Positions 21,563 through 52,312 of a stretch of DNA of 64,000 bases are shown here, piece by piece. The notes under the pieces were generated by a model. The model searched no databases. It worked only from the letters and a program-made list of their open reading frames with translations, and was not told the DNA's origin. Made by a program: the position numbers and the translations under genes. Origin of the DNA: Flagellimonas alvinocaridis (GTDB lineage Bacteria > Bacteroidota > Bacteroidia > Flavobacteriales > Flavobacteriaceae); contig NZ_SNTZ01000003.1 of NCBI RefSeq assembly GCF_004916895.1, forward strand, positions 62,001 through 126,000, given 5' to 3'. The first letter of the stretch is position 1, and the number at the start of each line of letters is the position of its first letter.

Positions 21563-22885
21563 TTATTCGTTCTGGTCGAATTTGGCGGAATAGCGTTTGT
21601 AGTCCAATTGTTGTGGTCCTTCCAAATCGATCTGCTTGCCGCCAATAAATGCCAAGGTCAAGGCATTGGTCTGTATATCGAGTGCATCCCCCTTGGATAC
21701 AAATAGACTGGCCACCTTGCCCACGGCAATGGATCCCAGCTTATCGTCAATTCCCAGAATTTTTGCGGGATGCAAGGTAATGGTCTTCAGGGCTTCCTCC
21801 TTGTTCATCCCAAATGCCACCGATGTCCCCGCATAAAAGGGCAGATTGATGGAGTTGGACAACGATCCCACATGGTACATGGATACCTCGATGCCCATCC
21901 GTTGCAATTTTGTTGGCAAACCATAAAAGGCATCATAGTCCATATCATCGTTTCTGGGGAGGTTGTAGGTAGGCGGGACAATCACCGGAATTTTGTTTTC
22001 CTTGAGAAAATCGACAACTTCCAGGGAACCCTCAGAGGCCACCAAGGAGATTTGGTCAATGCCAAAGGACTTGGCAAAGGTGATGCTCTCTATGATTTCC
22101 TTGGGTTCATTCACATGGATGACAAGTACCCTTTCTTTTTGGAACAGATCCGTTAAGGCCTCCAACTTCAAATTGGTTTGGGCAGTGGGCATTTGTTCGT
22201 ATTGCTTGGCATCGGAGAACAATTTTTCCAATTCACCGGTGATCTTTTCGTAAGAAGTATTGGGGCGGAGCATCCTGCTGTTCGTCTCGGCATCATAATA
22301 ACTCGATAGGGCAGAGGGCCAATCGAGGTGTATGGCCGCAGCCCTTTTGAATACAGCTTCCTCCCAGTTCCAGCCATCCAAGGACATTACCGATGAGGTG
22401 CCTGGAATGACACCTCTTGATCGAATCGATTCAATGTAAAGAACCCCATTGAACCGCAAAGGTGGAAGAAAAGTTGATGTCATATCAAAGGCGTAGACTG
22501 TTTGTAGGTTGGGAAGATAATCCCCTTCCTCCAAGGTATCATTGGTATGCGGAACGCCACTGATTTCGTTGATACCGATAATGGAATTCAAAAGGATAAA
22601 ACCCGGATATACCTGTTGTCCGGTTATGTCTATGATCTTATAATCGATCCCATTGGCGTCCAGATCGGAGGCTTTGCCCAAAAAGGTAATGGTTCCCTTG
22701 TCAAATCCAACCGCGGTGTCCTCCAATACCCGGCCATCCCCGGTATGAACGGTCCCCCCAACCAAAAGGATGGGAGTTTCCTGCTCCTTGGCAACCATCG
22801 GAAGAATCTGGGCATCCAATCCTTCCAAAAGGCTCGAAAGGATCAGTATCATGGTCAATATCGTATAAAATGTCTTGTTTTTCAT
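21563..22885 (-). CDS. Exported amidohydrolase-like protein lacking the HxH metal motif
   Basis: A 440-residue protein with a signal peptide (about 1-25). The fold is recognisable as the imidazolonepropionase-like branch of the amidohydrolase superfamily: an N-terminal strand set (ILLVGGTVHTGDGRVLEDT), an expected HxH position after VYPGF, and the C-terminal EEALKTITLHPAKILGIDDK and LGSIAVGKVASLFV. At the HxH position the sequence reads VYPGFILLNSIIGINE with no histidine, and the usual D near the end of the barrel is also replaced. It is 12 bp downstream of the 1012-codon paralogue. It may be a non-catalytic partner of that protein or use a different chemistry. Confidence 0.8.
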   Translation of the reverse strand: MKNKTFYTILTMILILSSLLEGLDAQILPMVAKEQETPILLVGGTVHTGDGRVLEDTAVGFDKGTITFLGKASDLDANGIDYKIIDITGQQVYPGFILLNSIIGINEISGVPHTNDTLEEGDYLPNLQTVYAFDMTSTFLPPLRFNGVLYIESIRSRGVIPGTSSVMSLDGWNWEEAVFKRAAAIHLDWPSALSSYYDAETNSRMLRPNTSYEKITGELEKLFSDAKQYEQMPTAQTNLKLEALTDLFQKERVLVIHVNEPKEIIESITFAKSFGIDQISLVASEGSLEVVDFLKENKIPVIVPPTYNLPRNDDMDYDAFYGLPTKLQRMGIEVSMYHVGSLSNSINLPFYAGTSVAFGMNKEEALKTITLHPAKILGIDDKLGSIAVGKVASLFVSKGDALDIQTNALTLAFIGGKQIDLEGPQQLDYKRYSAKFDQNE

Positions 22886-38915: not shown

Positions 38916-38929
38916 GGATAAATTTATCC
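38916..38929 (-). promoter_or_regulatory. Palindromic operator in front of ric (GGAYAA-type box)
   Basis: GGATAAATTTATCC is a perfect 14-bp palindrome 18 bp before the ric start. Related boxes occur upstream of the rrf2 gene at 39383 (GGACAATTTTGTCT on the - strand), the nos operon (GGATAAAAATGTCT, 48260-48273) and the copper operon (GGATAACAAAGTCT, 52299-52312), all with the same 14-bp span. The best candidate binder is one of the two Rrf2 proteins encoded here. Confidence 0.6.
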
Positions 38930-38948: not shown

Positions 38949-39383
38949 TTATCGTTTCAAATAGGTCAATCCCACTTCCAAACCTGTGGCGAGTTCGTAC
39001 AGACTTGTACTTTGTAGCATGGTCCTTAAATTGGATCTAACATCTACGAACTTGTCGTGTAGGGGACAGGGTTTGTCTGCATTGCACTCCTTTAGACCCA
39101 ATCCGCACCCCACATAGATTTTATCTCCATCAATGGCCTTCACTATCTTGCTTAGTTTTACGGTATCCATGGCTTCACGCTCAATTTCAAATCCACCTGT
39201 TGGACCTTTTACGGAATCTATAATGTTGTTCTTGGTGAGCTGTTGAAGGATTTTGGCGGTAAATGCCATGGGAGAATCAATTTCCTCAGCAATTTCATTG
39301 ACGCTTACACGTCTGCCATCCAAAGATTGCATAGCAATGTACACCGCCGCCCGAATACCATACTCACATGCTTTTGAGAACAT
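38949..39383 (-). CDS. Rrf2-family iron-sulfur transcriptional regulator (NsrR/IscR-like)
   Basis: A 144-residue winged-helix regulator. The N-terminal HTH includes VNEIAEEIDSPMAFTAKIL (about 28-46) and is followed by the wing SVKGPTGGFEI. Three cysteines at 93, 100 and 106 (CGLGLKECNADKPC) have the C-x6-C-x5-C spacing expected for an iron-sulfur sensor such as NsrR, which senses nitric oxide. It precedes ric by 50 bp and has a strong promoter carrying a GGAYAA-type box, so autoregulation is likely. A paralogue with the same cysteine spacing is at 48301-48732. Confidence 0.92.
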   Translation of the reverse strand: MFSKACEYGIRAAVYIAMQSLDGRRVSVNEIAEEIDSPMAFTAKILQQLTKNNIIDSVKGPTGGFEIEREAMDTVKLSKIVKAIDGDKIYVGCGLGLKECNADKPCPLHDKFVDVRSNLRTMLQSTSLYELATGLEVGLTYLKR

Positions 39384-39404: not shown

Positions 39405-39443
39405 CAAAGATAACGCTTAATTTAATTGAGACAAAATTGTCCT
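39405..39443 (-). promoter_or_regulatory. Promoter and operator of the rrf2-ric transcript
   Basis: On the - strand TATCTTTG (39412 to 39405) and TTTG (39435 to 39432) are separated by exactly 19 bp, a textbook Bacteroidota promoter. The box GGACAATTTTGTCT (39442 to 39429) covers the -33 element, so a bound regulator would compete with RNA polymerase. A further half-site, AGGACAA, is at 39472-39478. Confidence 0.75.
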
Positions 39444-40758: not shown

Positions 40759-41541
40759 TTAAAAGTCCTTCCGTTTTGCTTTATGGCCCAGTCCAAGTAT
40801 GGGCAATACTGTCCAAAGTAACAGAATGGCCATGGATACCAAGAAGCCCAGGTCAGTACCGAAGAACTTCTTGAAAATGGCGCCGGTGTAGCCCAATAGG
40901 GCAGAGATGTCCAATTTGAGCAGGATCAAGATACGGGAAAGATCAATTGGATTGAGGGCTGTAGCCACCAAAGAAAAAGTATCCAGAGGGTATTCCTCAA
41001 AAACGATGAGCGACATCAGGAACAGCCCGTCATAGACCACGGCCAAGAAAAGCCATAAGAGAACGGCATAGCCGAAACCCTTTATCTTGTTTTCGTTGGA
41101 TATGGCAATGACAAAAGATAATCCAACGAAAATGAACGTCAAGAAAGCCCCGGTGACCAATAGCAGTGAAAAATCAAAAATGGCATTGCTTCGTAAAAGC
41201 CCATACAGAACAAATGGAATGCCCAGACCCAACACCAGACTCATGGTCAATGAGCCTGCTACCCCAAAGTACTGTCCCATAAAAATGGACCTTCGGTTGA
41301 TGGGCTGAGCCAGTAAAAGTTCGGTGAATTCGCGGGAATTGTAATAGTACATCACCCCAAATATGGTGCCTATCAAAGGGATCAAGACAATAATCACATT
41401 CATCAAGGTGATTACGGCCTTGGAAACGTCGTTGTTCAAAAAAAGCAAAACAAACCCAAGGGCCAAGTAAAACAAAAAGTAAACGTAGCTCCAACGGCTT
41501 CTAATAAGGTCGTAAAAACTGTATTTCAGTATTTTAAGCAT
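40759..41541 (-). CDS. nosY: NosY-like ABC transporter permease
   Basis: A 260-residue integral membrane protein with six hydrophobic segments and the ABC-2/NosY-type motif GVMYYYNSREFTELLLAQPINR (split near 65-85). It overlaps the preceding ATPase gene by 8 bp, so the two are translationally coupled. NosFY together with periplasmic NosD are required for building the copper-sulfide CuZ centre of nitrous oxide reductase; the complex is thought to deliver a sulfur species. The assignment rests on family features plus the nosD-nosF-nosY order. Confidence 0.92.
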   Translation of the reverse strand: MLKILKYSFYDLIRSRWSYVYFLFYLALGFVLLFLNNDVSKAVITLMNVIIVLIPLIGTIFGVMYYYNSREFTELLLAQPINRRSIFMGQYFGVAGSLTMSLVLGLGIPFVLYGLLRSNAIFDFSLLLVTGAFLTFIFVGLSFVIAISNENKIKGFGYAVLLWLFLAVVYDGLFLMSLIVFEEYPLDTFSLVATALNPIDLSRILILLKLDISALLGYTGAIFKKFFGTDLGFLVSMAILLLWTVLPILGLGHKAKRKDF

Positions 41542-42247
41542 GACTTCCTATGTTTGTTATGGTCGCAATGGCGTGTTCAAAATTGGTTTGTTCCGTTTGC
41601 TTCAAAAGCTTTTCAATGTTTCCTTTGAAATAGATTTCACCTTCCAGAAGATATACAATCTCATCGGCCACCTCTTCCACAAACTGCATAATGTGTGAGG
41701 TGATTAAAATAGTCTTTCCTTGGGTCTTTTCTTTTTGAATCAGTTCCTTGAGCCGAATCAATGCCTTTGGATCTAGGCCAGTGGTAGGTTCATCAAGAAT
41801 GATCAATGGACTATCAAACATAAAGGTCAAAACAATGTTCACTTTTTGTTTGGTGCCCCCGGATAAGGTGGACAGTTTTTTGTTTAGAAAGGGTTCCAAC
41901 CCAAACAGTGTAATAAGTTCAGTTTCGTCAGCGACACTGTTCCGAAGGTCCTTGATCATATGGATCAATTCTTTGACCTTGATGTTGGGTGGAAAGTTTG
42001 CAATCTGGGGAAGATAATTGATTTGCTTGCGATACTTCCAATCCTTTTTAATGGGTTTCTCCAAAACCATGATCTGTCCTTTATTTGGAATTACCATGCC
42101 CAAAATGCTTTTGATCAGTGTGGTCTTTCCTGAACCATTGGGACCTAGGATGGCATAAATATGGCCTTCGTCAATGGTGAGGTCCACTCCTTTTAACACT
42201 TGGTTCTTTCCAAATTTCTTGTGGAGGTCTTCTATTTCTATGGTCAT
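41534..42247 (-). CDS. nosF: NosF-like ABC transporter ATPase
   Basis: A 237-residue ATPase with Walker A GPNGSGKTT (35-43), signature LSGGTKQKVNI (near 128) and Walker B LIILDEPTTGLD (near 152). It is 4 bp overlapped with nosD (ATGA) and 8 bp with nosY, a tight gene trio. It powers the NosY permease in maturation of the CuZ centre of NosZ. A regulatory extension is absent, and the length is normal for NosF. Confidence 0.94.
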   Translation of the reverse strand: MTIEIEDLHKKFGKNQVLKGVDLTIDEGHIYAILGPNGSGKTTLIKSILGMVIPNKGQIMVLEKPIKKDWKYRKQINYLPQIANFPPNIKVKELIHMIKDLRNSVADETELITLFGLEPFLNKKLSTLSGGTKQKVNIVLTFMFDSPLIILDEPTTGLDPKALIRLKELIQKEKTQGKTILITSHIMQFVEEVADEIVYLLEGEIYFKGNIEKLLKQTEQTNFEHAIATITNIGSHA

Positions 42248-43494
42248 GGTCGTATTTTCATTAAAGGTCGAATGTCTTTTAACTCATCCGGGGTGAATAC
42301 TGGGGAAACCCGTTCGGAAAAATCTATGATATCCATAAACAAGCTTCGAAGTAGCACAATGGTCTCAGGGGTACGGTTCACTATGTAGGAAAACAATTTT
42401 ACGGGCCTATAAGGTACATCACCAACACCATCCTTGTCCAAATCATAGCCGGTATAACTGCTCCAAAAATTACCTTCAAAGACATTGTCGTTGAGTTTAC
42501 TGTTGTATGAAATGTCAAAAGAATTGTACAGGAAATTGTTGCCTGTAAAACTGTTGGTATAGCAAGCTCCGATTACTCGAATGGCCCAACCATTGTTGAT
42601 GAAATCGTTATTGTGGTATTGAATGCGATTGGACCCCTCGATATTGATGCCGATGGTATTTTCTTCGAAGGTGTTTCCGCTGATTTCCGCATCATTGATT
42701 TCTTTCAAAAGCATGCCATAGGCCGCTGTTCCCCAATTCTTTTGAAAGGTGTTGTCTTTCATGGTGATGAATTTGGAAAACATGACCGCTACTCCAGCTC
42801 CATTATTTTCAAAGGTATTGTTCGAATACACATCATTGTTCGAGAACATAAAATGAAGCCCATACCGAAGATTGTCCACACTAGTATTATCGGTAATGGT
42901 TATGCGGTCTGAAAACTCCAAATAAATGCCATCCCTGGTACCTTGCACGTGGTTTTTGCTAACTTCTACATCCGTAGAATACCAAAGTTGGATGCCATTG
43001 CCGGAATTGTATTCGTCCACGGCCTGGCCAATAATCCTGTTGTGGTACACCTTGCCATGGGAAGATTTTTCCAGATAAATGCCAAAAAACAACTGTTCCA
43101 GCACCATATTCTGAATGAGGAAGTTTTTGCTCTGAACCACCCGTATGGCCGCATTGTCCTTGGTATAGCTTACCCCAACGTTAATAACAAAAAGGCCATC
43201 CAAGGTAACATTGTCCGAAGTGATCTTAAAAATCTCACCCTTTTTCTCTCCATCCACAATAGGATAGCCAATGCCTTTTATGACCAATGGTTTATCCACC
43301 AAAATCTCAAATTCTTTGTAGGTGCCTTTTTCAATGCGTATGGTGTCATGATCAGTAGCACGCGCAATGGTTTCCTTAATGGAATTGTTCTCGCAGGTAG
43401 CACAAACGGTCCAGGTGTTTGCCATACCTATTTGAAAACCCATCAATAGAATACAACCCAAAATGAATTTTATATGTTCTTTCTTGATTTTCAT
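42244..43494 (-). CDS. nosD: NosD-like periplasmic copper-site maturation protein
   Basis: A 416-residue exported protein (signal peptide about 1-26, ending near IGMANT). The body is a right-handed beta-helix of CASH repeats, seen as repeated N-N-x-F/I and D-x-x-I-x-x-N segments (for example YLEFSDRITITDNTSVDNLRYGLHF divided over two turns). A CxxC pair in TVCATCENN near residue 33 could bind metal. NosD interacts with NosZ and the NosFY transporter in CuZ assembly. The length agrees with known NosD proteins. Confidence 0.94.
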   Translation of the reverse strand: MKIKKEHIKFILGCILLMGFQIGMANTWTVCATCENNSIKETIARATDHDTIRIEKGTYKEFEILVDKPLVIKGIGYPIVDGEKKGEIFKITSDNVTLDGLFVINVGVSYTKDNAAIRVVQSKNFLIQNMVLEQLFFGIYLEKSSHGKVYHNRIIGQAVDEYNSGNGIQLWYSTDVEVSKNHVQGTRDGIYLEFSDRITITDNTSVDNLRYGLHFMFSNNDVYSNNTFENNGAGVAVMFSKFITMKDNTFQKNWGTAAYGMLLKEINDAEISGNTFEENTIGINIEGSNRIQYHNNDFINNGWAIRVIGACYTNSFTGNNFLYNSFDISYNSKLNDNVFEGNFWSSYTGYDLDKDGVGDVPYRPVKLFSYIVNRTPETIVLLRSLFMDIIDFSERVSPVFTPDELKDIRPLMKIRP

Positions 43495-43602
43495 AGTATA
43501 CCTCCGCTTTATGAACTAAAACCTACCAAAACAGGCAAGATTATAATGATGGTATTTCTGCCAATACATACCTAAACATGATGGATTTGGAAACCACCGT
43601 TT

Positions 43603-43902
43603 TTATCGGATAATCAAGAGTTTAGCATCCTCATTGGCCAACACCCAATGTTCCACATTCTTTGAAAAGCTAAAATGCTGTTGGGAGGTTAAATTAATGA
43701 TCTGGTTTTCGATATAAAAATCGATGCAACCTTCCAGCACAAACAAATGCACATCCTTTGGGGACGAATGTTTAGGAAAAAGTGCACCTTTGGCCAGACT
43801 AACACTCAAGATTTCCATTGACGGGTTTTTAACCAGTTGCTCTACCTGTAGGTCATGAAAAGGTTGTTGCGCAATGGTGTTATCAATTCCGATCATATAC
43901 AT
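43603..43902 (-). CDS. Small cupin-fold protein in the nos operon
   Basis: A 99-residue protein that reads as one small beta-barrel: LAKGALFPKHSSPKDVHLFV and LEGCIDFYIEN for the first cupin motif, then FSKNVEHWVLANEDAKLLII for the second. The usual first motif G-X5-HXH-X3-E is only partly kept (KHSSPKDVHLFVLEG), so a metal site is uncertain. There is no signal peptide. It lies between nosD (109-bp gap) and nosL (18-bp gap). Related small cupins occur in clade II nos gene clusters; its task is unknown. Confidence 0.65.
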   Translation of the reverse strand: MYMIGIDNTIAQQPFHDLQVEQLVKNPSMEILSVSLAKGALFPKHSSPKDVHLFVLEGCIDFYIENQIINLTSQQHFSFSKNVEHWVLANEDAKLLIIR

Positions 43903-43920
43903 AATTGTTGTTTTTAGGAG

Positions 43921-44352
43921 TTATTGGTATTCTTGTTTCAATTGATTCCAGGTGAAAAGTTCCCCACCGTTGTCATCCAACGCAAATTGGGCCGCCTGTT
44001 CTTCCGAAAATGCACTTAAAAAGGCACCCATAGGGCTTGGAATGTTCTCGCTGATTAAATAAGTGGCCCCTGTAGCATCTACCAATTCGCCCGGTTGGTC
44101 AAAATCATTGACCAAAAACAGGGCTATGGTAGATTCATCCTCATCTTTTAAGTGGTTCATCATGCATTCAACCGCATCAAAGTTAAAGACCTTTCCTTTT
44201 TTGGTGACCAATTGTGCGGCATGTTGCTTGTCCACAATGGTCATGCTGCAAAAATGACAACCTACATGGCCATAATCAATAGGTTTAGGACCTACGGTGC
44301 ATCCAAGGATACAGCCAAGCATGGCAAAACAGAAGATAAAAGATGGTTTCAT
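43921..44352 (-). CDS. nosL: NosL-like copper chaperone lipoprotein
   Basis: A 143-residue lipoprotein with lipobox LGCILGC near Cys14-Cys18. It has the NosL signature VGCHFCSMTIVDKQHAAQLV (about 30-49), where the CxxCxM group binds Cu(I), and later NFDAVECMMNHL and TGATYLISENIPSPMGAF. NosL delivers copper to apo-NosZ. It overlaps none of its neighbours but is only 11 bp from the next gene upstream. Confidence 0.94.
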   Translation of the reverse strand: MKPSFIFCFAMLGCILGCTVGPKPIDYGHVGCHFCSMTIVDKQHAAQLVTKKGKVFNFDAVECMMNHLKDEDESTIALFLVNDFDQPGELVDATGATYLISENIPSPMGAFLSAFSEEQAAQFALDDNGGELFTWNQLKQEYQ

Positions 44353-45099: not shown

Positions 45100-47052
45100 T
45101 TATTCACCTAAAGACCATTTCAGTTCCATGTTGGAATTGGCAGGGGAAACCCTAACATATCCTTGCATTTCTTGGTGCAATGCAGAACAAAAATCAGTAC
45201 AGTAGAACGGCCATACCCCAACTTGTTTGGGCTCCCATACCGAAGTCTTGGTCTGTCCTGGCATAATCAGAAGCTCGGAGGTGTTCTGACCTAGGATAGA
45301 GAAACCGTGTGGCACATCAAAATCCTGTTCGTGGTTGGTGATGTGGAAGTACACTTTGTCACCCACTTTGATACCCTCGATATTGTCTGGCGTAAAGTGG
45401 CTTCGTATAGTGGACATATATACGTGGACCTCGTTGCCTTCGCGTACCACTTTGGAACCAGTAGGCGATGTTACGGCGTATGGGTGTTTGTTCTCATCCA
45501 ATCGATAGATTTTCTTTGATTTTGGTGCCAACAGTTCAGCTGGGCAACCAGCAGCATAGTGGGGCTCACCATGCGTTGGAAAATCATAGATGAGTTCCAT
45601 TTTCTCACCAGAAATGTCATAGATCTGTGCAGAGTGTTCCATTTCCGGTCCAGTGGGCAGATAACGGTCTTTGGTAATCTTGTTCATGGCCACTACGTAT
45701 TTGCCAAAGGGTTTTCTTGAGTTACCCCCGGGAATCATCAAGTGTCCAACAGAATAATAGGTGGGTTTTCTATCGATGACCTCCCAAGTACCCAATTTCC
45801 ATTTTACCACTTCAGAAGAGATAAAGAAGGTAGTGTAGGCGTTTCCTTTGCCGTCAAACTCGGTATGAAGGGGGCCTAGGCCACCACTTTTTACCTGTCC
45901 AGCCAATACATCCTCAAACTTAAGGATTGGAATACCGTAGGCTTCACCGTCGAATTTCTCACCTTCTATGGCCGCTATCATCTTGTCAAAAGAGTGTACG
46001 GTCAAGTCTGCAGACAGTTTACCGTTTCCAATGATGTATTGCCCAGTTGGATCTACATCACAACCGTGTGGCGATTTTGGAGTAGGTAAGAAAAATACAG
46101 CCCCGGGCACCTTTAAAGGATCAACCGTCAATACCTCTTTTTTCATGGTGGTGGTTGCCATATGGGTACTTTCATCATAAACATTATGGGCGTAGTTGGC
46201 TGGCATTTTGGTACCACCACCATTGTTTACATATTCTTCGATTTTCTTCCAGTTGACTGCGGCAATAAAATCCTTGTCGTTCTGGGATGCATTTACCTCT
46301 TGAAGCGTGTGGGCTTCTTCTGTGTTATAGGTAGTAAAGAAGAACCATCCGTGAGATTTTCCGCGACCGGGATGCGAAAGATCATAGTTGAACCCAGGCA
46401 TCAACAATTGAAACTTCAAGTCCATATGACCGTGTTCTGGGTCTACACTGATAAAGGACAGAGATCCCTTGAAATTGCTTTTGTATTCATTGATTGGCAT
46501 ATCCCTTTGTGGAATGGGAACGGAGAAACGTGTTCCTGCTACTACATACTCGGTGTTCTCGGTAATGAATGAAGAACTGTGGTTCCCGGCACTATTGGGC
46601 ACTTCGATGATTTCTTCTGTTTCAAAAGTGCTCAAACTGATACGGGCAATCCTTGGAGTATTGTTGCCATTGATGAATATCCAACGTCCATCCAGTTCTC
46701 CATTGGTCTGGGAGATATCAGGGTGGTGGGCATCGTCCCAAGGTACAAATCCATGAGATGTAGTAAGCATGGGCTTGGTCTCTTCAGAATATCCATATCC
46801 AGAAGTTGGGAATTGGGAGAACACGGGGATTTCCTTGAACATCCTTCCAGAAGGTAGTCCATAAACGGTAAGGTTACCGCTGTATCCACCAGAAAGGAAA
46901 GCATAGTATTCGTCCTGCTCACCTGGAGCAACATACACTTTTTCGGCGGCACTTGACGAGAGGGCCCCGTTTGAGTTTTGGTTTTGTTGACCACAGGAAG
47001 CCAGTACCAGGACAGCCCCCATGGACATGATCAATTTTTTATAAATTTTCAT
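45100..47052 (-). CDS. nosZ: Clade II (Sec-type) nitrous oxide reductase
   Basis: A 650-residue precursor of the copper enzyme that reduces N2O to N2. The N-terminus is a Sec lipoprotein signal (lipobox VLASC, Cys19), not a Tat signal, which marks clade II. The beta-propeller supplies CuZ histidines in DDAHHPDISQTNG, SPHGCDVDPTGQYIIGNGKL, GPLHTEFDGKGNAYTTFF and GEPHYAAGCP. The C-terminal cupredoxin domain has the CuA site: HxxD..VPHGF and VWPFYCTDFCSALHQEM with Cys618, Cys622, His626 and Met629. All ligands look intact, so the product should be active. The gene is third in the series after cytochrome c and fasciclin genes. Confidence 0.98.
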   Translation of the reverse strand: MKIYKKLIMSMGAVLVLASCGQQNQNSNGALSSSAAEKVYVAPGEQDEYYAFLSGGYSGNLTVYGLPSGRMFKEIPVFSQFPTSGYGYSEETKPMLTTSHGFVPWDDAHHPDISQTNGELDGRWIFINGNNTPRIARISLSTFETEEIIEVPNSAGNHSSSFITENTEYVVAGTRFSVPIPQRDMPINEYKSNFKGSLSFISVDPEHGHMDLKFQLLMPGFNYDLSHPGRGKSHGWFFFTTYNTEEAHTLQEVNASQNDKDFIAAVNWKKIEEYVNNGGGTKMPANYAHNVYDESTHMATTTMKKEVLTVDPLKVPGAVFFLPTPKSPHGCDVDPTGQYIIGNGKLSADLTVHSFDKMIAAIEGEKFDGEAYGIPILKFEDVLAGQVKSGGLGPLHTEFDGKGNAYTTFFISSEVVKWKLGTWEVIDRKPTYYSVGHLMIPGGNSRKPFGKYVVAMNKITKDRYLPTGPEMEHSAQIYDISGEKMELIYDFPTHGEPHYAAGCPAELLAPKSKKIYRLDENKHPYAVTSPTGSKVVREGNEVHVYMSTIRSHFTPDNIEGIKVGDKVYFHITNHEQDFDVPHGFSILGQNTSELLIMPGQTKTSVWEPKQVGVWPFYCTDFCSALHQEMQGYVRVSPANSNMELKWSLGE

Positions 47053-47085: not shown

Positions 47086-47673
47086 TTATTCTTTTGGGGG
47101 AAGGATAACTTTGTCCACAACATGGACAATACCGTTCCCGGCAGGTACACTGGCAATTATTTTGGCACCTCCAACAAAAACATCATCACCCTTGATTTCA
47201 ACAGGGACATTTTGATCATTGGCCTGTCCCAATTTTTTGAAGTTTTTCAAAAAATCCTTTGAATAGTTGCCAGGAGTAACGTGGTACTTGAGAATATTGG
47301 CCAATGCGTCCTTGTTTTCAGGTTTCAACAAGTTTTCCACGGTACCTTCAGGTAGGGCATCAAAAGCTGTATTGGTAGGCGCAAACACCATTAACGGGCC
47401 TGCATTCACTAGGGCATTTTCAAGCTCCGCTGCCTGCACTGCGGCGACCAGCGTACTATGGTCAGGTGAACCAATGGCTATTTGCAATACGTTGGGAGTA
47501 GATCCATCGTCTTCAATAAAAGCTTGTCCCTTGTTATTTTCCAGAATGGCCTCGGTATCATTTTGGCCAGAAGCTGTTGTGTCGTTTTGGGGCCCTTGTT
47601 TGCAACTGCTGACTACCATGAGCAGCAAAAACAGCCCCATCATACTGAGTTTGATGGTTGATTTCATATGCAT
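47086..47673 (-). CDS. Fasciclin-domain lipoprotein in the nos operon
   Basis: A 195-residue lipoprotein (signal peptide with lipobox MVVSSC near Cys24). One fasciclin (FAS1) domain covers about 60-193: IAIGSPDHSTLVAAVQAAEL, GPLMVFAPTNTAFDALP and the end IIASVPAGNGIVHVVDKVIL. Its start codon shares a base with the stop of the cytochrome c gene (TAATG) and it is 33 bp before nosZ. FAS1 domains mediate protein contacts in the envelope; here it may position NosZ or its electron donor. FAS1 genes are found in other Bacteroidota nos clusters. Confidence 0.88.
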   Translation of the reverse strand: MHMKSTIKLSMMGLFLLLMVVSSCKQGPQNDTTASGQNDTEAILENNKGQAFIEDDGSTPNVLQIAIGSPDHSTLVAAVQAAELENALVNAGPLMVFAPTNTAFDALPEGTVENLLKPENKDALANILKYHVTPGNYSKDFLKNFKKLGQANDQNVPVEIKGDDVFVGGAKIIASVPAGNGIVHVVDKVILPPKE

Positions 47674-48185
47674 TATTTTAAGGTTCTAAAATATTCTAGA
47701 ATGGCACGGGCCTGATCTTCGGTCAACCCTTGGTTGGACATGGGCGAACCGTTAAATTCTTGGAGCAATTCTTTGGCCAAAGGATCTTGTTGTACCATTT
47801 CTTGGGGGTTCAAGATCATGTTCATGACCCATTCGGGAGTTCTTCGCTCCAATATTCCGTTTGGGGCGGGGCCTATGAATTTTTTATCTACCCTATGACA
47901 GGCCAGACACATTTGCTCATAAACTTCTTTGCCTTTGGCAGCCATAGTTTGGTCTATTTCAGGTGCCAGATCAACAGACTTAATGGGGCCGACACCTTTC
48001 GTGGACATGTCCACACGTTCAGAAGCTTTGACCTGATCGGTTATAGGGGTTTCAGCAGGCTGCTCTGTTGTTGTCTTTTGCCTTTGAATACTGAAACCGT
48101 CGTCTTTTTTCTCCTCTTTCTTACCGCCACAGCTTATCAAGATGAGCGTAAAGAGTAAGGTTATTCCTTTTAGTATAGTCTTCAT
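47673..48185 (-). CDS. Monoheme c-type cytochrome lipoprotein, first gene of the nos operon
   Basis: A 170-residue lipoprotein (lipobox LILISC, Cys19). After a low-complexity linker (about 22-80) comes a class I cytochrome c domain with heme site CLACH (Cys93, Cys96, His97), FIGPAPNGIL, and the axial Met in NGSPMSNQGLT. It is the likely electron donor to the CuA centre of NosZ. It heads the operon under the composite promoter at 48211-48273 and is translationally coupled to the fasciclin gene. Confidence 0.92.
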   Translation of the reverse strand: MKTILKGITLLFTLILISCGGKKEEKKDDGFSIQRQKTTTEQPAETPITDQVKASERVDMSTKGVGPIKSVDLAPEIDQTMAAKGKEVYEQMCLACHRVDKKFIGPAPNGILERRTPEWVMNMILNPQEMVQQDPLAKELLQEFNGSPMSNQGLTEDQARAILEYFRTLK

Positions 48186-48210
48186 GTGATAAATGGTTAA
48201 AATTTCGTAT

Positions 48211-48273
48211 CAAAAGTAGCATGGGTAAAACACTAAAAACATGATAATAGTCATGAAAAGGATAAAAATGTCT
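48211..48273 (-). promoter_or_regulatory. Composite promoter of the nos operon: -7 box, Crp/Fnr-like box, GGAYAA box
   Basis: Read on the - strand: TACTTTTG (48218 to 48211) is a -7 element. The palindrome ATGAC-TATT-ATCAT (48254 to 48241; + strand ATGAT-AATA-GTCAT) is centred about 41 bp above the predicted start, the class II activator position, and replaces a -33 box. The second box (+ strand GGATAAAAATGTCT, 48260-48273) lies just above it. The ATGAT-N4-GTCAT form resembles DNR/NNR sites (TTGAT-N4-GTCAA). The same layout, base for base in spacing, is found at 52250-52312. Confidence 0.75.
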
Positions 48274-48300
48274 TTTAATCTTTGTTGAATATAAAATGTC

Positions 48301-48732
48301 ATGCTCTCCAACTCCTCCAAATATGCCATCAAGGGAGTACTTTATTTAGCAGTAAACTCCAATGAGGACCGAAAGATTATGGTCAGGGACATTTTTGAAA
48401 TGATCCATGTGCCTGAAGCTTACTTGGCCAAACTGTTGCAGGAACTGTCACGACACAATATCATTTCCTCCACCAGAGGACCTAAAGGAGGGTTCTATTT
48501 GAGCGATGAAGACCGAAAACGGACTCTTATGGATATTGTTAGGGTAATTGATGGGGAAAAGCGCATAAAGTCCTGTGTTTTGGGAATCAAGGACTGTGAT
48601 ATGGATAATCCCTGTGTGTTGCATAAATTGGTGGGAGCGAACAAATCAAAATTTATAAAAGTACTCCAGAATACCACCATTTTGGATTTGGTGGAAGGAA
48701 AACAGGATATAGAAGAGTTTTTTCCCATTTGA
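48301..48732 (+). CDS. Rrf2-family iron-sulfur transcriptional regulator (second copy)
   Basis: A 143-residue regulator divergent from the nos operon. The helix-turn-helix includes VRDIFEMIHVPEAYLAKLL (about 28-46) and the wing SSTRGPKGGFYL. Cysteines 92, 99 and 105 (CVLGIKDCDMDNPC) keep the same C-x6-C-x5-C spacing as the protein at 38949-39383, so both probably carry an NO- or oxygen-labile cluster. Its start is 28 bp from the GGAYAA box shared with the nos promoter, so it is a prime candidate for binding there. It ends at a bidirectional terminator. Confidence 0.92.
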   Translation: MLSNSSKYAIKGVLYLAVNSNEDRKIMVRDIFEMIHVPEAYLAKLLQELSRHNIISSTRGPKGGFYLSDEDRKRTLMDIVRVIDGEKRIKSCVLGIKDCDMDNPCVLHKLVGANKSKFIKVLQNTTILDLVEGKQDIEEFFPI

Positions 48733-48789
48733 TTCCTTTTTTGCAACCGAACTCTTGCCGCATCTTTAATTTAGAAAATGCGGGAATTA

Positions 48790-48819
48790 AAAAGGTCATC
48801 CATTTGTGGATGACCTTTT
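48790..48819. terminator. Bidirectional terminator between rrf2 and the copper operon
   Basis: AAAAGGTCATCCA (48790-48802) pairs perfectly over 13 bp with TGGATGACCTTTT (48807-48819) around a TTTG loop. A and T tracts on the two sides let it end transcription from both the + strand rrf2 gene and the - strand lipoprotein gene that finishes at 48835. Confidence 0.88.
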
Positions 48820-48834
48820 AAAAAACAACAAGTT

Positions 48835-49689
48835 TTAAAACTCAATCTCGAAGTACAAACTGCTACTTTCGTTCTCTTCCGTAACACTTTCTCCTTTTAA
48901 GATTTCATCATTGGCATTGAGCAGCTGTAAGTTGATTTTCCAGTAACCGGTCATGGTGAGGGACAGTTTGCCTGCATAGTTACCGGCAGTGGCGTCATAG
49001 ATTAAATCCTCATTATTGGGGGAACTATGGTTGCCCATTCCTGGCATTCTGGGATCTAACTTTATGGTATAGTTTTCTATAGGTTGAAAGCTCATCATAG
49101 ATTCCATTTTGAATAGTACGGCCGATAGGTCGTTGATAGCAACTTCTGGCGTAAGTGGCATCATGGCCAAAACATAACGGGCATCATCGGCACCCATGAA
49201 TACATTGACCGTTTTTTTGCCATCAGCTGGGGCGTTGACCTCTATGGTTTCCGAGATGGTATAGGTAGTGCCCCCAAAGCTGTATTCTAGGTTCAACTCC
49301 CAATATTCGTTAGCGTTGCTGGCCATTTGAAAGACCACAAAGCCTTTATAGACGGTTTTTTCCTCTGTTGCTGAAATCTCCGATTTTGGACAGGAATGGC
49401 TCATTTGGGTCATGTGCATAACGGGATTCCAGCTAATGGTTGCATTGGGGATATATTCACCGGTTGACAAGTCCTTAATTTGGAGGTATAGCTCATTGTA
49501 ACCTGTGGTCAAAACCTCTTTTTCAGAATATAGCTCCAACATATGGCCATTGGCCTCAAAACTACTTGTCAGATTATAAGCTTCCAATGGATTTTCAGTT
49601 ACAGGCATTGGGCTTTCGTTATTATCGGAGCAAGATGTAATTCCAACAGATAATGCAATCAATATGATTAAGGATTTTATAGTTTTCAT
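48835..49689 (-). CDS. Met/His-rich lipoprotein with two YtkA-like domains (putative copper binder)
   Basis: A 284-residue lipoprotein (lipobox VGITSC, Cys20). Two beta-sandwich units of the YtkA type are recognisable, each with a Met/His cluster: PVMHMTQMSHSCPKSE near residue 90 and DPRMPGMGNHSSPNNED near residue 215. Such clusters bind Cu(I) or Cu(II) in periplasmic copper proteins. The gene is 24 bp after the TonB copper-receptor gene and is probably the last gene of that operon. It may receive copper from the receptor. The copper role is inferred from composition and position. Confidence 0.7.
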   Translation of the reverse strand: MKTIKSLIILIALSVGITSCSDNNESPMPVTENPLEAYNLTSSFEANGHMLELYSEKEVLTTGYNELYLQIKDLSTGEYIPNATISWNPVMHMTQMSHSCPKSEISATEEKTVYKGFVVFQMASNANEYWELNLEYSFGGTTYTISETIEVNAPADGKKTVNVFMGADDARYVLAMMPLTPEVAINDLSAVLFKMESMMSFQPIENYTIKLDPRMPGMGNHSSPNNEDLIYDATAGNYAGKLSLTMTGYWKINLQLLNANDEILKGESVTEENESSSLYFEIEF

Positions 49690-49713
49690 TGTTTTTGATT
49701 TTAATAATTAGGA

Positions 49714-51774
49714 TTAATTAATGGCATAGGATAAGGTCATGAAAAAGTTCCTTCCCATGCGGGGTATATTGTTCCAATCGGAATACGTTGAGTAATAGGT
49801 GTCAAATAGGTTTTCAACTCCTGCCTTCACATACAGCGTATTCCCACCAAAGGAAAAGGTCTTGCCCAAGGATAGGGATAGTAACGTATAGGCAGATGTA
49901 CGGTCCTCCCCAAAAGTGGGGCTGAAATTGGTTTGTTCCATTGCGCCGGATAAGGTCACTGATCCCGAAAAACTTCCATGGGCATAGCTCAATTGGGAAC
50001 GGTAGTCAACGGGACTGATGAAGGGCAGATTGCGACCATTGTGGTCTATGCCCCTGTGATAAGAGACCCGTCCACTCCAGTTGAGTTCAGAGGTAAACTT
50101 GTATTCCATATCCATAGAGACATTGTAAAGGTTGGCATGTTTCAAATTGGTATAGACTTTAACGCCATCGGCACCTATGGTCATTTCGTTGAGTGTTGGG
50201 TCAATTTCACCAATGATATAATCCCTGGTGTGAAAGTAATTGCCCTCTAGACCAAGCTCCAGATTATCTAATGGTAATGTAACCTTGATTCGGGTCTCCA
50301 AGGCTTTCTCATTCTTGAGATTTGGATTGCCAATGTAATCATGGTTGTCAAAACTGTTGAACAGATAAAAGCCAAATCCCTCAGAAACCGAAGGAGCACG
50401 ATCACCATAGGCAACACCACCGTTTACATGCCATTTCTTAAACTGTTTGTGATAATGCGCTGAAACACTTTTTAGTGTGCGTGTTTGCCTTTGGTCCATA
50501 TCTGGATAGAAAATCCGAAGACTGTTCAGTCCAAAATCATCCGCCACATGAAACGATTGGTAGGCCAGTCGAGTAGCTAATTTTAGGATGCCGTCGCTGA
50601 GGTTAATTTTGTCTTCCAAATAAAGACCCGTATTCAACGTCCGTACATCTGGCCAAGTAAGCATGAACATTTCCTGCTCATTGGGGTTATTGGGATACAT
50701 GGTCATTTCCGCCAAGGAACGATTGTAAAATCCATCGATTTTACCCATAAACCTATGGTTATCAAAAGAGAGCTCGGTCTGGGAATAAAACCCATAGGTG
50801 TCACTCCAACCGGGCATATCCATTCGAATGGGCACATCAGGTCTTTGGCTGTCATCCATAATATGTGTAATGGTGTTGGCATATAGCTTGGATTCCCAAT
50901 TCTCAAGGTTTCCAATAAAATTGGATTGCACCCAACTTAGTGATCCAATAAAGGCACGTGCCAAGGATACATCCATAGGCAGGGCAGGGTAGCCTACATC
51001 CCGGGCCTCGTCAAAAATAAAACTGGCTAACAGTTTTTGGTCATCGGAGACTTTGTACCCAGCATTGGCGGACAGATTGTATTTTTCATATTGGGAAAAG
51101 GCAACCTCTTCACCGCCACCAGCGGTATAGTTTTCTGCCTTCCGATAAATGATATCGGTATCCAAATAGAAATTTTCATCAGAGTAATTGAGCTCTCCCC
51201 CCACAATTTGAGAGGTGTTGTTGGTCTCGTAACCCGTTTCCACAGCAGCTGTCCAGCCCAAGGGTTTAAAGTTGCTCTTCTCCAAGCGCATATCAATGGC
51301 TCCTCCTATTACATTGCCGTGTTGGGCACCTTGTTGTCCACTTTTCACCTGGACATCCGAAAGATTGGATACGTCCACATAGGATGTTATAGGGTCCATT
51401 TTATCCGTACAGGCCCCAAAAATTCGCATACCATCAATGGTAATGGACAATCGCTCAGAGGTCATATCATTGAGCATTGGATCCCAGGCATATGCACCAC
51501 GTTTGACCATGGATATTTTCTTGGAGGATTCCAGATATTCATCCAAAGTGGATAGTGGATTTGGTTGCGATTTGTGTTCAATACTTCTTTTAAAGGATGA
51601 GATGACAATGACCTCCTTTAAATCTATTGTCAAAATTGAATCCAAGGTTTGGAACTCTATGGGTTCTTGGGCCTGGAGCTTTGACTGAAAAATTAACATT
51701 AGGCAAAGCCCAAGGACAACTAGCGGATATTTTATGCAAGCTGACCTGACCCGAAATGAATAATTCGATTTCAT
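49714..51774 (-). CDS. TonB-dependent copper receptor, NosA/OprC-like
   Basis: A 686-residue outer-membrane receptor (signal peptide up to about 35, LQAQ) without the STN or CPD-like domain of SusC proteins. The plug contains DGMRIFGACTDKMDPITSYV (about 114-133), which matches the NosA/OprC family consensus; the CxxxM pair Cys122 and Met126 corresponds to the copper-binding Cys and Met of Pseudomonas OprC. The barrel ends with FFMTLSYAIN. Further Met- and His-rich loops occur (MTMYPNNPNEQEMFML). NosA is needed for copper supply to NosZ in Pseudomonas stutzeri, and here the gene shares the nos-type promoter through the gene upstream. Confidence 0.85.
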   Translation of the reverse strand: MKSNYSFRVRSACIKYPLVVLGLCLMLIFQSKLQAQEPIEFQTLDSILTIDLKEVIVISSFKRSIEHKSQPNPLSTLDEYLESSKKISMVKRGAYAWDPMLNDMTSERLSITIDGMRIFGACTDKMDPITSYVDVSNLSDVQVKSGQQGAQHGNVIGGAIDMRLEKSNFKPLGWTAAVETGYETNNTSQIVGGELNYSDENFYLDTDIIYRKAENYTAGGGEEVAFSQYEKYNLSANAGYKVSDDQKLLASFIFDEARDVGYPALPMDVSLARAFIGSLSWVQSNFIGNLENWESKLYANTITHIMDDSQRPDVPIRMDMPGWSDTYGFYSQTELSFDNHRFMGKIDGFYNRSLAEMTMYPNNPNEQEMFMLTWPDVRTLNTGLYLEDKINLSDGILKLATRLAYQSFHVADDFGLNSLRIFYPDMDQRQTRTLKSVSAHYHKQFKKWHVNGGVAYGDRAPSVSEGFGFYLFNSFDNHDYIGNPNLKNEKALETRIKVTLPLDNLELGLEGNYFHTRDYIIGEIDPTLNEMTIGADGVKVYTNLKHANLYNVSMDMEYKFTSELNWSGRVSYHRGIDHNGRNLPFISPVDYRSQLSYAHGSFSGSVTLSGAMEQTNFSPTFGEDRTSAYTLLSLSLGKTFSFGGNTLYVKAGVENLFDTYYSTYSDWNNIPRMGRNFFMTLSYAIN

Positions 51775-51866
51775 GGTTAAAGGTTTTGAATCAATTCAAA
51801 AAAATAAAGGGCACCCAGTAGTTGGGAAAATATTGGAATTTTCCCTTAGGGGTACGTCGAATTCAT

Positions 51867-52244
51867 TCAGGCTTGCTCTGGAGGGTGGGGAATGTCTCTA
51901 ACAAAAAGTGATGTATGTAAATCTTGATAATAATAACCACTGGGGGCTATGCAAGTTTGGAATTGTAAGGACAGGTCAACGGATGGTATAGGTTGGAAGA
52001 AATCCATAGGTTGGACTTCCGTTTTTGACCGTTGATCTCCAAAGGGATTTCTATCGGAATCTTTTTGTTGTTCTTCCAATTGTTTTGCCAAGTAGCACTT
52101 ACCATTACATTGCAACTCTGGTCTATTCTTGTTTTTACAGAGCACTTCTGAGATATATTCATAGTTGGCCACGTACTCCATGATGGGCCAAAGAGGCTTG
52201 ACCAACATCGAAAAAGCGACCAAAAGAATAATAGTGTGCTTCAT
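51867..52244 (-). CDS. Small Cys-containing membrane-anchored protein heading the copper operon
   Basis: A 125-residue protein not assigned to a named family. A hydrophobic N-terminus (about 1-22) serves as signal or anchor. The core EVLCKNKNRPELQCNGKCYL (about 34-53) has three cysteines with the CNGKC element and is followed by a charged stretch (KQLEEQQKDSD) and a final His-Pro-rich tail (RDIPHPPEQA). Similar short genes stand next to TonB receptor genes in other Flavobacteriia. It is the first gene after the composite promoter at 52250-52312; the predicted transcript begins almost at its ATG. A copper-handling role is suggested by cysteines and context. Confidence 0.6.
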   Translation of the reverse strand: MKHTIILLVAFSMLVKPLWPIMEYVANYEYISEVLCKNKNRPELQCNGKCYLAKQLEEQQKDSDRNPFGDQRSKTEVQPMDFFQPIPSVDLSLQFQTCIAPSGYYYQDLHTSLFVRDIPHPPEQA

Positions 52245-52249
52245 AGGGA

Positions 52250-52312
52250 CAAAAGTAGAAAAGGCTCATGGGTGTGAACATGATAATTGTCATAAAGAGG
52301 ATAACAAAGTCT
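52250..52312 (-). promoter_or_regulatory. Composite promoter of the copper-import operon, same geometry as the nos promoter
   Basis: On the - strand TACTTTTG (52257 to 52250) is the -7 box. The + strand sequence ATGAT-AATT-GTCAT is at 52280-52293, 23 bp from the -7 box, and GGATAACAAAGTCT is at 52299-52312, a 19-bp offset. These distances equal those at 48211-48273. The ATG at 52244 is only 6 bp past the -7 box, so the message should be leaderless or almost so. Confidence 0.75.

Follow-up and report, generated by a model that had tools for sequence, protein, structure and literature searches.

The 64,000-nucleotide stretch of Flagellimonas alvinocaridis DNA analysed here (contig NZ_SNTZ01000003.1, positions 62,001 to 126,000; hereafter the window) carries a nitrous oxide (N2O) reductase (nos) operon and, 4 kb away, an operon for a TonB-dependent receptor that we term the copper-receptor operon. 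Upstream of both we found the same elements in the same order, namely TAnnTTTG (-7 box), exactly 22 bp, ATGAYN4RTCAT (inner box), 5 bp and the 14-bp palindrome RGAYAWNNWTRTCY (outer box). The nos and putative copper-import operons of marine Flavobacteriaceae are probably switched on together from this one rigidly spaced promoter type, because the shared promoter joins a likely oxygen-responsive activator site to a site for a regulator of a nitric oxide (NO)-sensor family. A first-pass annotation of this DNA had reported the three elements at both promoters, and all of them lie where it had placed them. Its 19-bp offset between the two palindromes was borne out, start to start, but the distance from the -7 box to the first palindrome is 22 bp in both promoters and not the 23 bp it had given; the second box is positioned correctly, but the form GGATAA-N4-GTCT ascribed to it is better replaced by the palindrome RGAYAWNNWTRTCY. 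The outer box matches RGAYAWNNWTRTCY without mismatch at nos and with one mismatch at the copper receptor, and in each promoter its start lies 19 bp above that of the inner box. The promoter elements are as follows.

48211..48218, minus strand: -7 box TACTTTTG of the nos promoter
48241..48254, no strand: inner box ATGACTATTATCAT of the nos promoter, predicted Fnr site, centre -41.5 for nos
48260..48273, no strand: outer palindrome AGACATTTTTATCC of the nos promoter, predicted Rrf2 operator, centre -60.5 for nos
52250..52257, minus strand: -7 box TACTTTTG of the copper-receptor operon
52280..52293, no strand: inner box ATGACAATTATCAT of the copper-receptor promoter
52299..52312, no strand: outer palindrome AGACTTTGTTATCC of the copper-receptor promoter, 1 mismatch
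48277..48284, plus strand: -7-like box AATCTTTG of the divergent gene rrf2A, 1 mismatch, 22 bp from the inner box on its opposite side

Mapped sigma-A promoters of Flavobacterium psychrophilum carry TAnnTTTG at -12 to -5 (PMC9723704). Application of this scale to the -7 boxes yields predicted transcription starts at 48206 (nos) and 52245 (copper receptor) and predicted centres of -41.5 for the inner and -60.5 for the outer box. On these predicted starts the inner box occupies the class II activator position, in agreement with the earlier estimate of a first box near -41. The TTTG at -33 is absent, as had been noted, yet a T-tract is kept at predicted -33 to -30, with T in 46, 45, 34 and 44 of 50 nos regions from an earlier set that includes L230 and L232, whose box is not the nos one (L and G numbers are our handles for loci and genomes). 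The rrf2A promoter shares the nos boxes, which relative to rrf2A are centred at about -41.5 (inner) and about -22.5 (outer).

We propose, with a probability of roughly 0.6, a two-input promoter at which an Fnr-type regulator would activate at low oxygen and an NO-sensing Rrf2 protein would block activation until NO is present. Fnr would bind the inner box at low oxygen and activate the sigma-A promoters from the class II position at -41.5, and an Rrf2 protein of the NsrR type (from rrf2A near nos and/or rrf2B near the RIC gene) would bind the outer palindrome. The alpha C-terminal domain of RNA polymerase binds above class II activators, and holo-Rrf2 at -60.5 would most likely block its contact above Fnr, that is, act by anti-activation; destruction of the Rrf2 iron–sulfur (Fe–S) cluster by NO would lift the block. 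At divergent clusters a single Fnr site at about -41.5 would serve both genes, and Rrf2 would lie over the rrf2 core promoter (about -22.5, autorepression) yet at -60.5 for nos. N2O reductase and the copper receptor would be made at the same time, under low oxygen and in the presence of nitrogen oxides. We infer the protein–site pairs, the sign of the Rrf2 action and the signals from features observed in the DNA, namely the sites, their geometry, their conservation and their association with fnr, rrf2 and RIC genes.

A pattern search of the whole genome and of related genomes bore out the shared promoter. At up to 3 mismatches, the 3.73-Mb genome holds 2 matches to the 33-bp two-palindrome pattern, these being the nos and copper-receptor promoters, and 0 to the reversed pattern. 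A survey of 120 family genomes, each from a different genus, gave 36 matches to the oriented dual pattern (≤1 mismatch) in 33 genomes versus 5 reversed-pattern matches, and the oriented pattern was present in 29 of 56 genomes with nosZ versus 4 of 64 without (Fisher p 2e-8; the match in G076 lies away from nos). Of 29 matches examined among the 36, 23 stand at nos, 1 at the copper receptor, 1 at nirK and 4 (L161, L167, L168, L182) at something else or by chance. The nirK case, L160 in G115, is a full dual promoter before a nirK gene (TIGR02376 above cut-off) in a genome without a nosZ match.

Conservation upstream of nos and receptor genes in relatives, which the first-pass annotation had set beforehand as one of the points on which its claim could fail, was found at most loci of both kinds. 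We compared 54 nos regions, one genome per genus, made up of the window and the nosZ upstream sequences of 53 among the 55 other nosZ-positive genomes; G058 and G037, where nosZ lies at a contig edge, were left out. The inner and -7 boxes (≤1 mismatch each) stand exactly 22 bp apart in 51 of the 54, and both are exact in 44; the misses are L224 (938 bases), L233 (no inner box near nos) and L239 (-7 box with 2 mismatches). Of the 52 regions where nos has an inner box nearby, 47 show an exact TAnnTTTG at 22 bp. The outer box (≤1 mismatch) lies 18–20 bp above the inner start in 33 of 51 regions, 22 of 29 with a divergent rrf2 and 11 of 22 without, and chance matches numbered 19 at 21,600 random places in the same sequences (about 0.0009) and 6 of 10,200 in shuffled upstream segments. 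The 40 outer matches in the 50-region set fall at offsets of -19 (27 matches), -20 (6), -18 (1), -28 (2), -33 (1), +20 (2) and +33 (1), and the offset of -28 is about one helical turn beyond -19. Since the spacer between inner and -7 box holds almost zero information in the 50-region profile, T-tract aside, and the boxes and distances are kept, it is the boxes and their spacing that are conserved, not the whole sequence. Of 17 other loci with the copper-receptor gene on the nos strand, some of them from near-identical species, 15 keep the layout (inner ≤1 and outer ≤2 mismatches at 19–20 bp, gap 22); L078 and L087 are without it. These results support the common control of nos and copper receptor claimed earlier. 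The nos leaders of L086–L088 and L090–L092 (mostly Cytophagia) are without the promoter design. At L023, an orphan outer–inner pair lies 1720 bp upstream of nosZ, with no -7 box and no copper-receptor gene match in the locus, and looks like the remnant of a lost operon.

The outer box is very probably the operator of an Rrf2 protein of an NsrR/RIC-type regulon, a prediction drawn from the presence of this palindrome at rrf2 and RIC promoters. The features concerned in the window are listed below.

48301..48732, plus strand: rrf2A, 143 aa, Rrf2 family, divergent from nos, between the nos promoter and the copper-receptor operon
38949..39383, minus strand: rrf2B, 144 aa
38170..38898, minus strand: RIC/YtfE iron–sulfur repair protein (TIGR03652 243.6 bits, above cut-off)
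39429..39442, no strand: outer-type palindrome GGACAATTTTGTCT of the rrf2B promoter, 16 bp above TATCTTTG (39405-39412)
38916..38929, no strand: perfect outer palindrome GGATAAATTTATCC before RIC

In 80 NosZ loci, among which close duplicates remain (for example, L027–L029) and whose counts are not independent, the palindrome (≤1 mismatch, ≤120 bp upstream, either strand) precedes 28 of 28 rrf2B, 23 of 35 RIC and 41 of 43 rrf2A genes, 59 of 75 nos leaders and 16 of 18 cu125 genes (copper-receptor operon) versus 6 of 497 other cluster genes; at divergent clusters a single copy enters the rrf2 and the nos count alike (most rrf2A and 4 rrf2B), and 481 of the 497 control genes entered the test, 16 hyp37751 rows (0 matches) being left out. 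The exact outer pattern taken alone is little above chance in number in the genome, with 27 sites versus 20 for the reversed control; 24 of the 27 lie in or at the edge of mechanically called open reading frames (ORFs; 15 plus 7, plus 2 in the window), and the remaining three are the nos, rrf2B and RIC sites. Seven further rrf2B-type genes were read elsewhere in the family, and in four of these (L288, L299, L300, L289) the palindrome stands at about -57 to -60 relative to the start, the first three preceding RIC; rrf2 types and the L289 start were judged by eye. By comparison, the palindrome stands before 1 of 14 IscR-like rrf2 genes. Readings of the outer box as a second Crp/Fnr half-site or as an AT-rich UP element were rejected, the box being a palindrome with invariant GA/TC bases that recurs at rrf2 and RIC promoters and hardly at other genes.

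Both candidate binders have the Rrf2 fold (PF02082 94.3 bits for rrf2A and 90.3 bits for rrf2B; cut-off 30). The nearest solved relative of Rrf2A by sequence is NsrR, and its three Cys are all matched in the alignment to 5n07; Rrf2B carries three cluster-type Cys in the arrangement C-x6-C-x5-C. The RIC and nos targets suggest that the two proteins respond to NO. Homologues of rrf2A (E ≤ 1e-25) occur in 37 of 56 nosZ-positive versus 9 of 64 nosZ-negative genomes. All 15 genomes checked that have an outer box (≤2 mismatches) or a receptor copy but no rrf2 beside nos encode an Rrf2 protein with an NsrR-like score elsewhere, and G078 and G031, which are without the outer box, have IscR-like Rrf2 proteins only. 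The earlier suggestion of a second regulator directly above the activator is supported by these data, and the regulator is very probably an Rrf2 protein of the NsrR type, given the palindrome at rrf2 and RIC promoters. A third Rrf2 gene of this genome (L147; contig C56, 5291-5811), 40% identical to rrf2A, has an inner-type box upstream and lies near genes that resemble, by inspection, those for an anaerobic ribonucleotide reductase and its activase.

The sign of the Rrf2 action is suggested by where the palindrome stands at other promoters. At rrf2B and at rrf2 promoters of the Cytophagia it lies over or close to the -33 region, with an inner box (≤1 mismatch) above the outer box in three of the Cytophagia set (L086, L087, L090), and where rrf2 is divergent it stands between that gene and the inner box; on the predicted promoter scale these are repressor positions. 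At L195 the palindrome occurs solely between the inner and -7 boxes, and at L188 both there and upstream, the copy between the two boxes being perfect in each locus; a palindrome below the activator supports a repressor role. The same evidence bears on the view that Rrf2 at -60.5, a class I position, is a co-activator that contacts RNA polymerase or Fnr, so that both regulators would be required. The near-fixed 19-bp offset and the position of the centre would suit such protein–protein contact, and IscR-type Rrf2 proteins are able to activate. However, co-activation is opposed by the palindrome's overlap with, or closeness to, the core promoters of rrf2B and RIC, by its position between inner box and divergent rrf2, by the copies below the activator in L188 and L195, and by the existence of nos promoters without an outer box; we regard it as unlikely though deserving of attention.

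An Fnr-type regulator most likely binds the inner box, an assignment made because the box precedes fnr in 28 of 30 loci. Two Crp/Fnr proteins of this genome score above the HTH_Crp_2 cut-off. One of them, a 229-aa protein encoded outside the window (L141; contig C91, 8813-9502), combines the cNMP-binding fold with a Crp-type helix-turn-helix (PF00027 68.5 bits and PF13545 56.2 bits, both above cut-off); its score for the curated PRK11161 model is 110 bits, under the cut-off of 228, and therefore we name it Fnr-type. Among solved relatives, the Crp/Fnr protein 2gau comes first, followed by Fnr proteins. In the alignment to the solved Fnr 9qlt, two N-terminal Cys and the central Cys align, which make up three of the four Cys ligands of the Fnr cluster; an equivalent of C29 is absent. 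Among the orthologues, C5, C8 and C107 are present in all 30 rows and C54 in 29 (row L264 is a wrong ORF). Flavobacterial Fnr-type proteins are thus seen without an equivalent of E. coli Fnr C29, a different set of cluster ligands being possible, and C54 may replace the missing Cys. In the recognition helix, ATESAIRII, the E and R of Fnr are retained and its S is replaced by I, a change that may fit ATGAY instead of TTGAT.

The genomic context agrees with this assignment. The fnr gene, divergent from a ccoI-like gene, has a hemN-like gene and genes for a cbb3 oxidase as neighbours (named by inspection). A pattern that fixed 22 bp to the -7 box located inner boxes, with at most 1 mismatch, before the fnr, hemN-like and uspA genes of this cbb3 cluster. 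At orthologous fnr loci, our own genome included, the inner box (≤1 mismatch) was found in 28 of 30 cases versus 1 of 30 gene-body windows, in a span from 260 bp upstream to 90 bp inside the longest reading frame (L264 was read at the neighbouring gene with the shared intergenic region), and the outer box in 0 of 30. The first-pass annotation had predicted a Crp/Fnr/DNR-type activator encoded elsewhere; the class II Crp/Fnr part of this is supported, but in this genome the activator appears to be of the Fnr and not the DNR type, given its conserved Cys, its place in the cbb3/hemN-like cluster and the box before its own gene. The second Crp/Fnr protein of the genome (L010) was set aside as activator, the E of the recognition helix being missing (judged by eye).

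A different regulator at the inner box, either of the DNR type (NO/haem) or a response-regulator/Crp (REC–Crp) fusion, is a possibility to which we give little credence in this genome. It draws on genera without Fnr that keep the box and carry a REC–Crp fusion whose recognition helix, ATESLIRTL, is nearly identical to that of the Fnr-type protein. Here, however, no REC–Crp match at E ≤ 1e-50 was obtained among the 17 of 45 first-look candidates scored, only Fnr of the two HTH_Crp_2 proteins shows the E..R recognition pattern (by eye), and the inner box precedes fnr orthologues. Across the family, either Fnr or REC–Crp is present in 55 of 56 nosZ-positive genomes (the exception, G048, is 82% complete) versus 44 of 64 nosZ-negative ones, or 43 if five genomes with only distant Fnr matches are excluded, REC–Crp having been scored on 17 first-look candidates in most genomes. 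Mutual exclusion of the two regulators proved false, both being present in 20 of 56 nosZ-positive genomes. REC–Crp fusions of about 350 aa (L302–L317) occur in 53 of the 120 family genomes, some of them 7–20 kb from nos.

It is very improbable that the outer box serves autoregulation of the divergent rrf2 gene alone and plays no part at nos. A divergent rrf2 does adjoin the box in 29 of 51 genera, and 17 of 27 divergent cases, versus 6 of 18 without rrf2, show a TAnnTTTG (≤1 mismatch) on the rrf2 side at 21–23 bp from the inner box (exact: 7 of 27 versus 1 of 18), 27 of the 29 divergent cases having been examined (L189 and L226 were left out). The same offset is nevertheless kept at the copper-receptor promoter, including those 15 of 17 other loci, and because this promoter has no divergent rrf2 in the window and nos without adjacent rrf2 keeps the box (≤1 mismatch) in 11 of 22 genera, we conclude that the outer box serves the nos and receptor operons too. 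At L206 (G019), a stretch resembling the rrf2A start, with ATG changed to ATA, lies below the outer box; it is possibly a decaying rrf2 gene with the outer box retained. Shared ancestry alone, with the receptor promoter an old copy of the nos/rrf2 intergenic region and its outer box functionless now, would account for two promoters 4 kb apart with like order and spacing, but can scarcely hold when boxes and distances stay while spacer bases are unconserved in a one-per-genus comparison and a nirK promoter of the same design occurs in a genome without a nosZ match.

Several observations weigh against Fnr activation with NO-relieved Rrf2 blocking. The position -60.5 is not that of a simple repressor. 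Nine of 51 genera with the other two elements show no outer box (≤2 mismatches at 18–20 bp, or ≤1 within -60 to +30), an absence qualified by the non-IscR-like Rrf2 protein (class judged by score) that 7 of these 9 carry. Among the seven further rrf2B-type genes, two are without the palindrome (L285, L296) and one has it with 2 mismatches (L293). The curated NsrR model PRK11014 was missed by both proteins (50.3 bits for rrf2A and 39 bits for rrf2B; cut-off 182), and we therefore call them NsrR-like; Rrf2A and Rrf2B are both candidate binders of the outer box. On the activator side, TAnnTTTG (≤1 mismatch) lies 21–23 bp below the fnr inner box in 11 of 30 loci. Fnr orthologues are missing in many nosZ-positive genera with a perfect inner box, where the REC–Crp fusion is the sole candidate found and a possibility as inner-box regulator; the fusion's own promoter is without an inner box (0 of 16).

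The remaining genes of the two operons in the window are given below; most names in the nos cluster were assigned by inspection.

47673..48185, minus strand: leader gene of the nos operon, c-type cytochrome with a lipoprotein-like start, followed by a fasciclin-like protein gene, then nosZ and nos accessory genes
45100..47052, minus strand: nosZ, Sec-type, in the nos operon, presumably clade II (name and clade from inspection and recall)
40759..44352, minus strand: nosL (43921-44352), nosD (42244-43494), nosF (41534-42247) and nosY (40759-41541), named by inspection
43603-43902, minus strand: small ORF inside the nosL–nosY stretch
52244 down to 48835, minus strand: copper-receptor operon
51867..52244, minus strand: small Cys-containing protein, 125 aa, leader gene of the copper-receptor operon
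49714..51774, minus strand: TonB-dependent receptor of the copper-receptor operon
48835..49689, minus strand: 284-aa protein with a YtkA-like domain, last gene of the copper-receptor operon

The nosL, nosD, nosF and nosY order is the same in most relatives. For the receptor, the top NCBIfam model is TIGR01778 TonB-copper at 132.7 bits, under the cut-off of 472, and family searches gave no match for the 125-aa Cys-containing protein. The gene for the latter is predicted to be leaderless, with the ATG at +2 of the predicted transcript (start codon 52244), and a start codon at +1 or +2 is seen in 14 of 15 other dual-promoter receptor loci (L045 differs), the start codons there being placed by alignment with the protein of the window.

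Flavobacteriaceae are important clade II N2O reducers, and the proposed promoter would supply a concrete wiring for the timing of N2O consumption, with low oxygen read through Fnr, NO through Rrf2 and copper uptake tied in. The architecture is readable from DNA alone and could serve to predict, for genomes and metagenomes, behaviour as an N2O sink. More tentatively, we consider it possible that the elements form a family-wide cassette in which Rrf2, fixed at a distance of about 19 bp above the class II Fnr dimer, would be an NO-controlled partner of the activator (by synergy or by anti-activation through direct contact). One Fnr site would serve two divergent promoters, the cassette would drive N2O reductase and copper uptake as well as nirK in one genus, and the activator would be exchangeable (Fnr or REC–Crp) on constant DNA.

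The first-pass annotation had known of no description of this dual architecture in Flavobacteriia. That holds within the open-access literature searched, in whose consulted portions we found no description of the paired architecture in this class, but dual control by Fnr and NsrR as such is known from Neisseria, where aniA is activated by Fnr and repressed by NsrR with relief by NO (PMC10187123). The Neisseria norB–aniA intergenic region is alike in placing low-oxygen Fnr and NsrR on a denitrification gene within a divergent regulatory region; it differs in that NarQP and Fur also act there and in its targets, aniA and norB, which here are nos and the copper receptor (PMC10187123, as far as the consulted part describes them). 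A further difference is that here the Rrf2 site lies above the activator at a near-fixed distance. The sigma factor and the operator sequence of Neisseria differ from those here as well.

Other comparisons concern the separate halves of the promoter. The NsrR/RIC (YtfE) nitrosative stress regulon is alike in its Rrf2 regulator with three cluster-type Cys and in an operator at rrf2 and RIC promoters, but the proteins here score below the NCBI NsrR cut-off. The palindrome GGAYAANNTTRTCC also differs from the long enterobacterial NsrR site. The HcpR, DNR, NnrR and NsrR regulons were reconstructed by Rodionov and others (PMC1274295), and the DNR, NnrR and HcpR regulons are alike in having activators of the Crp/Fnr family upstream of nos and an FNR-like motif with N4; the portion of that study drawn on here covers Proteobacteria, Clostridium, Bacteroides (HcpR2 on hcp) and others, and contains neither a nos regulon of Flavobacteriia nor a paired Rrf2 operator (PMC1274295). 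Rrf2-family genes were reported to be enriched in clade II nos scaffolds of marine sediment, with a role called difficult to predict, an account that, in the part consulted, gives the neighbourhood of nos and rrf2 and no binding site or promoter geometry (PMC6264515). In Nitrosophilus, Crp/Fnr sites have been proposed upstream of clade II nos genes (PMC11539149). Set beside these systems, dual control by Fnr and NsrR is already known, and it is the present geometry and targets that look new.

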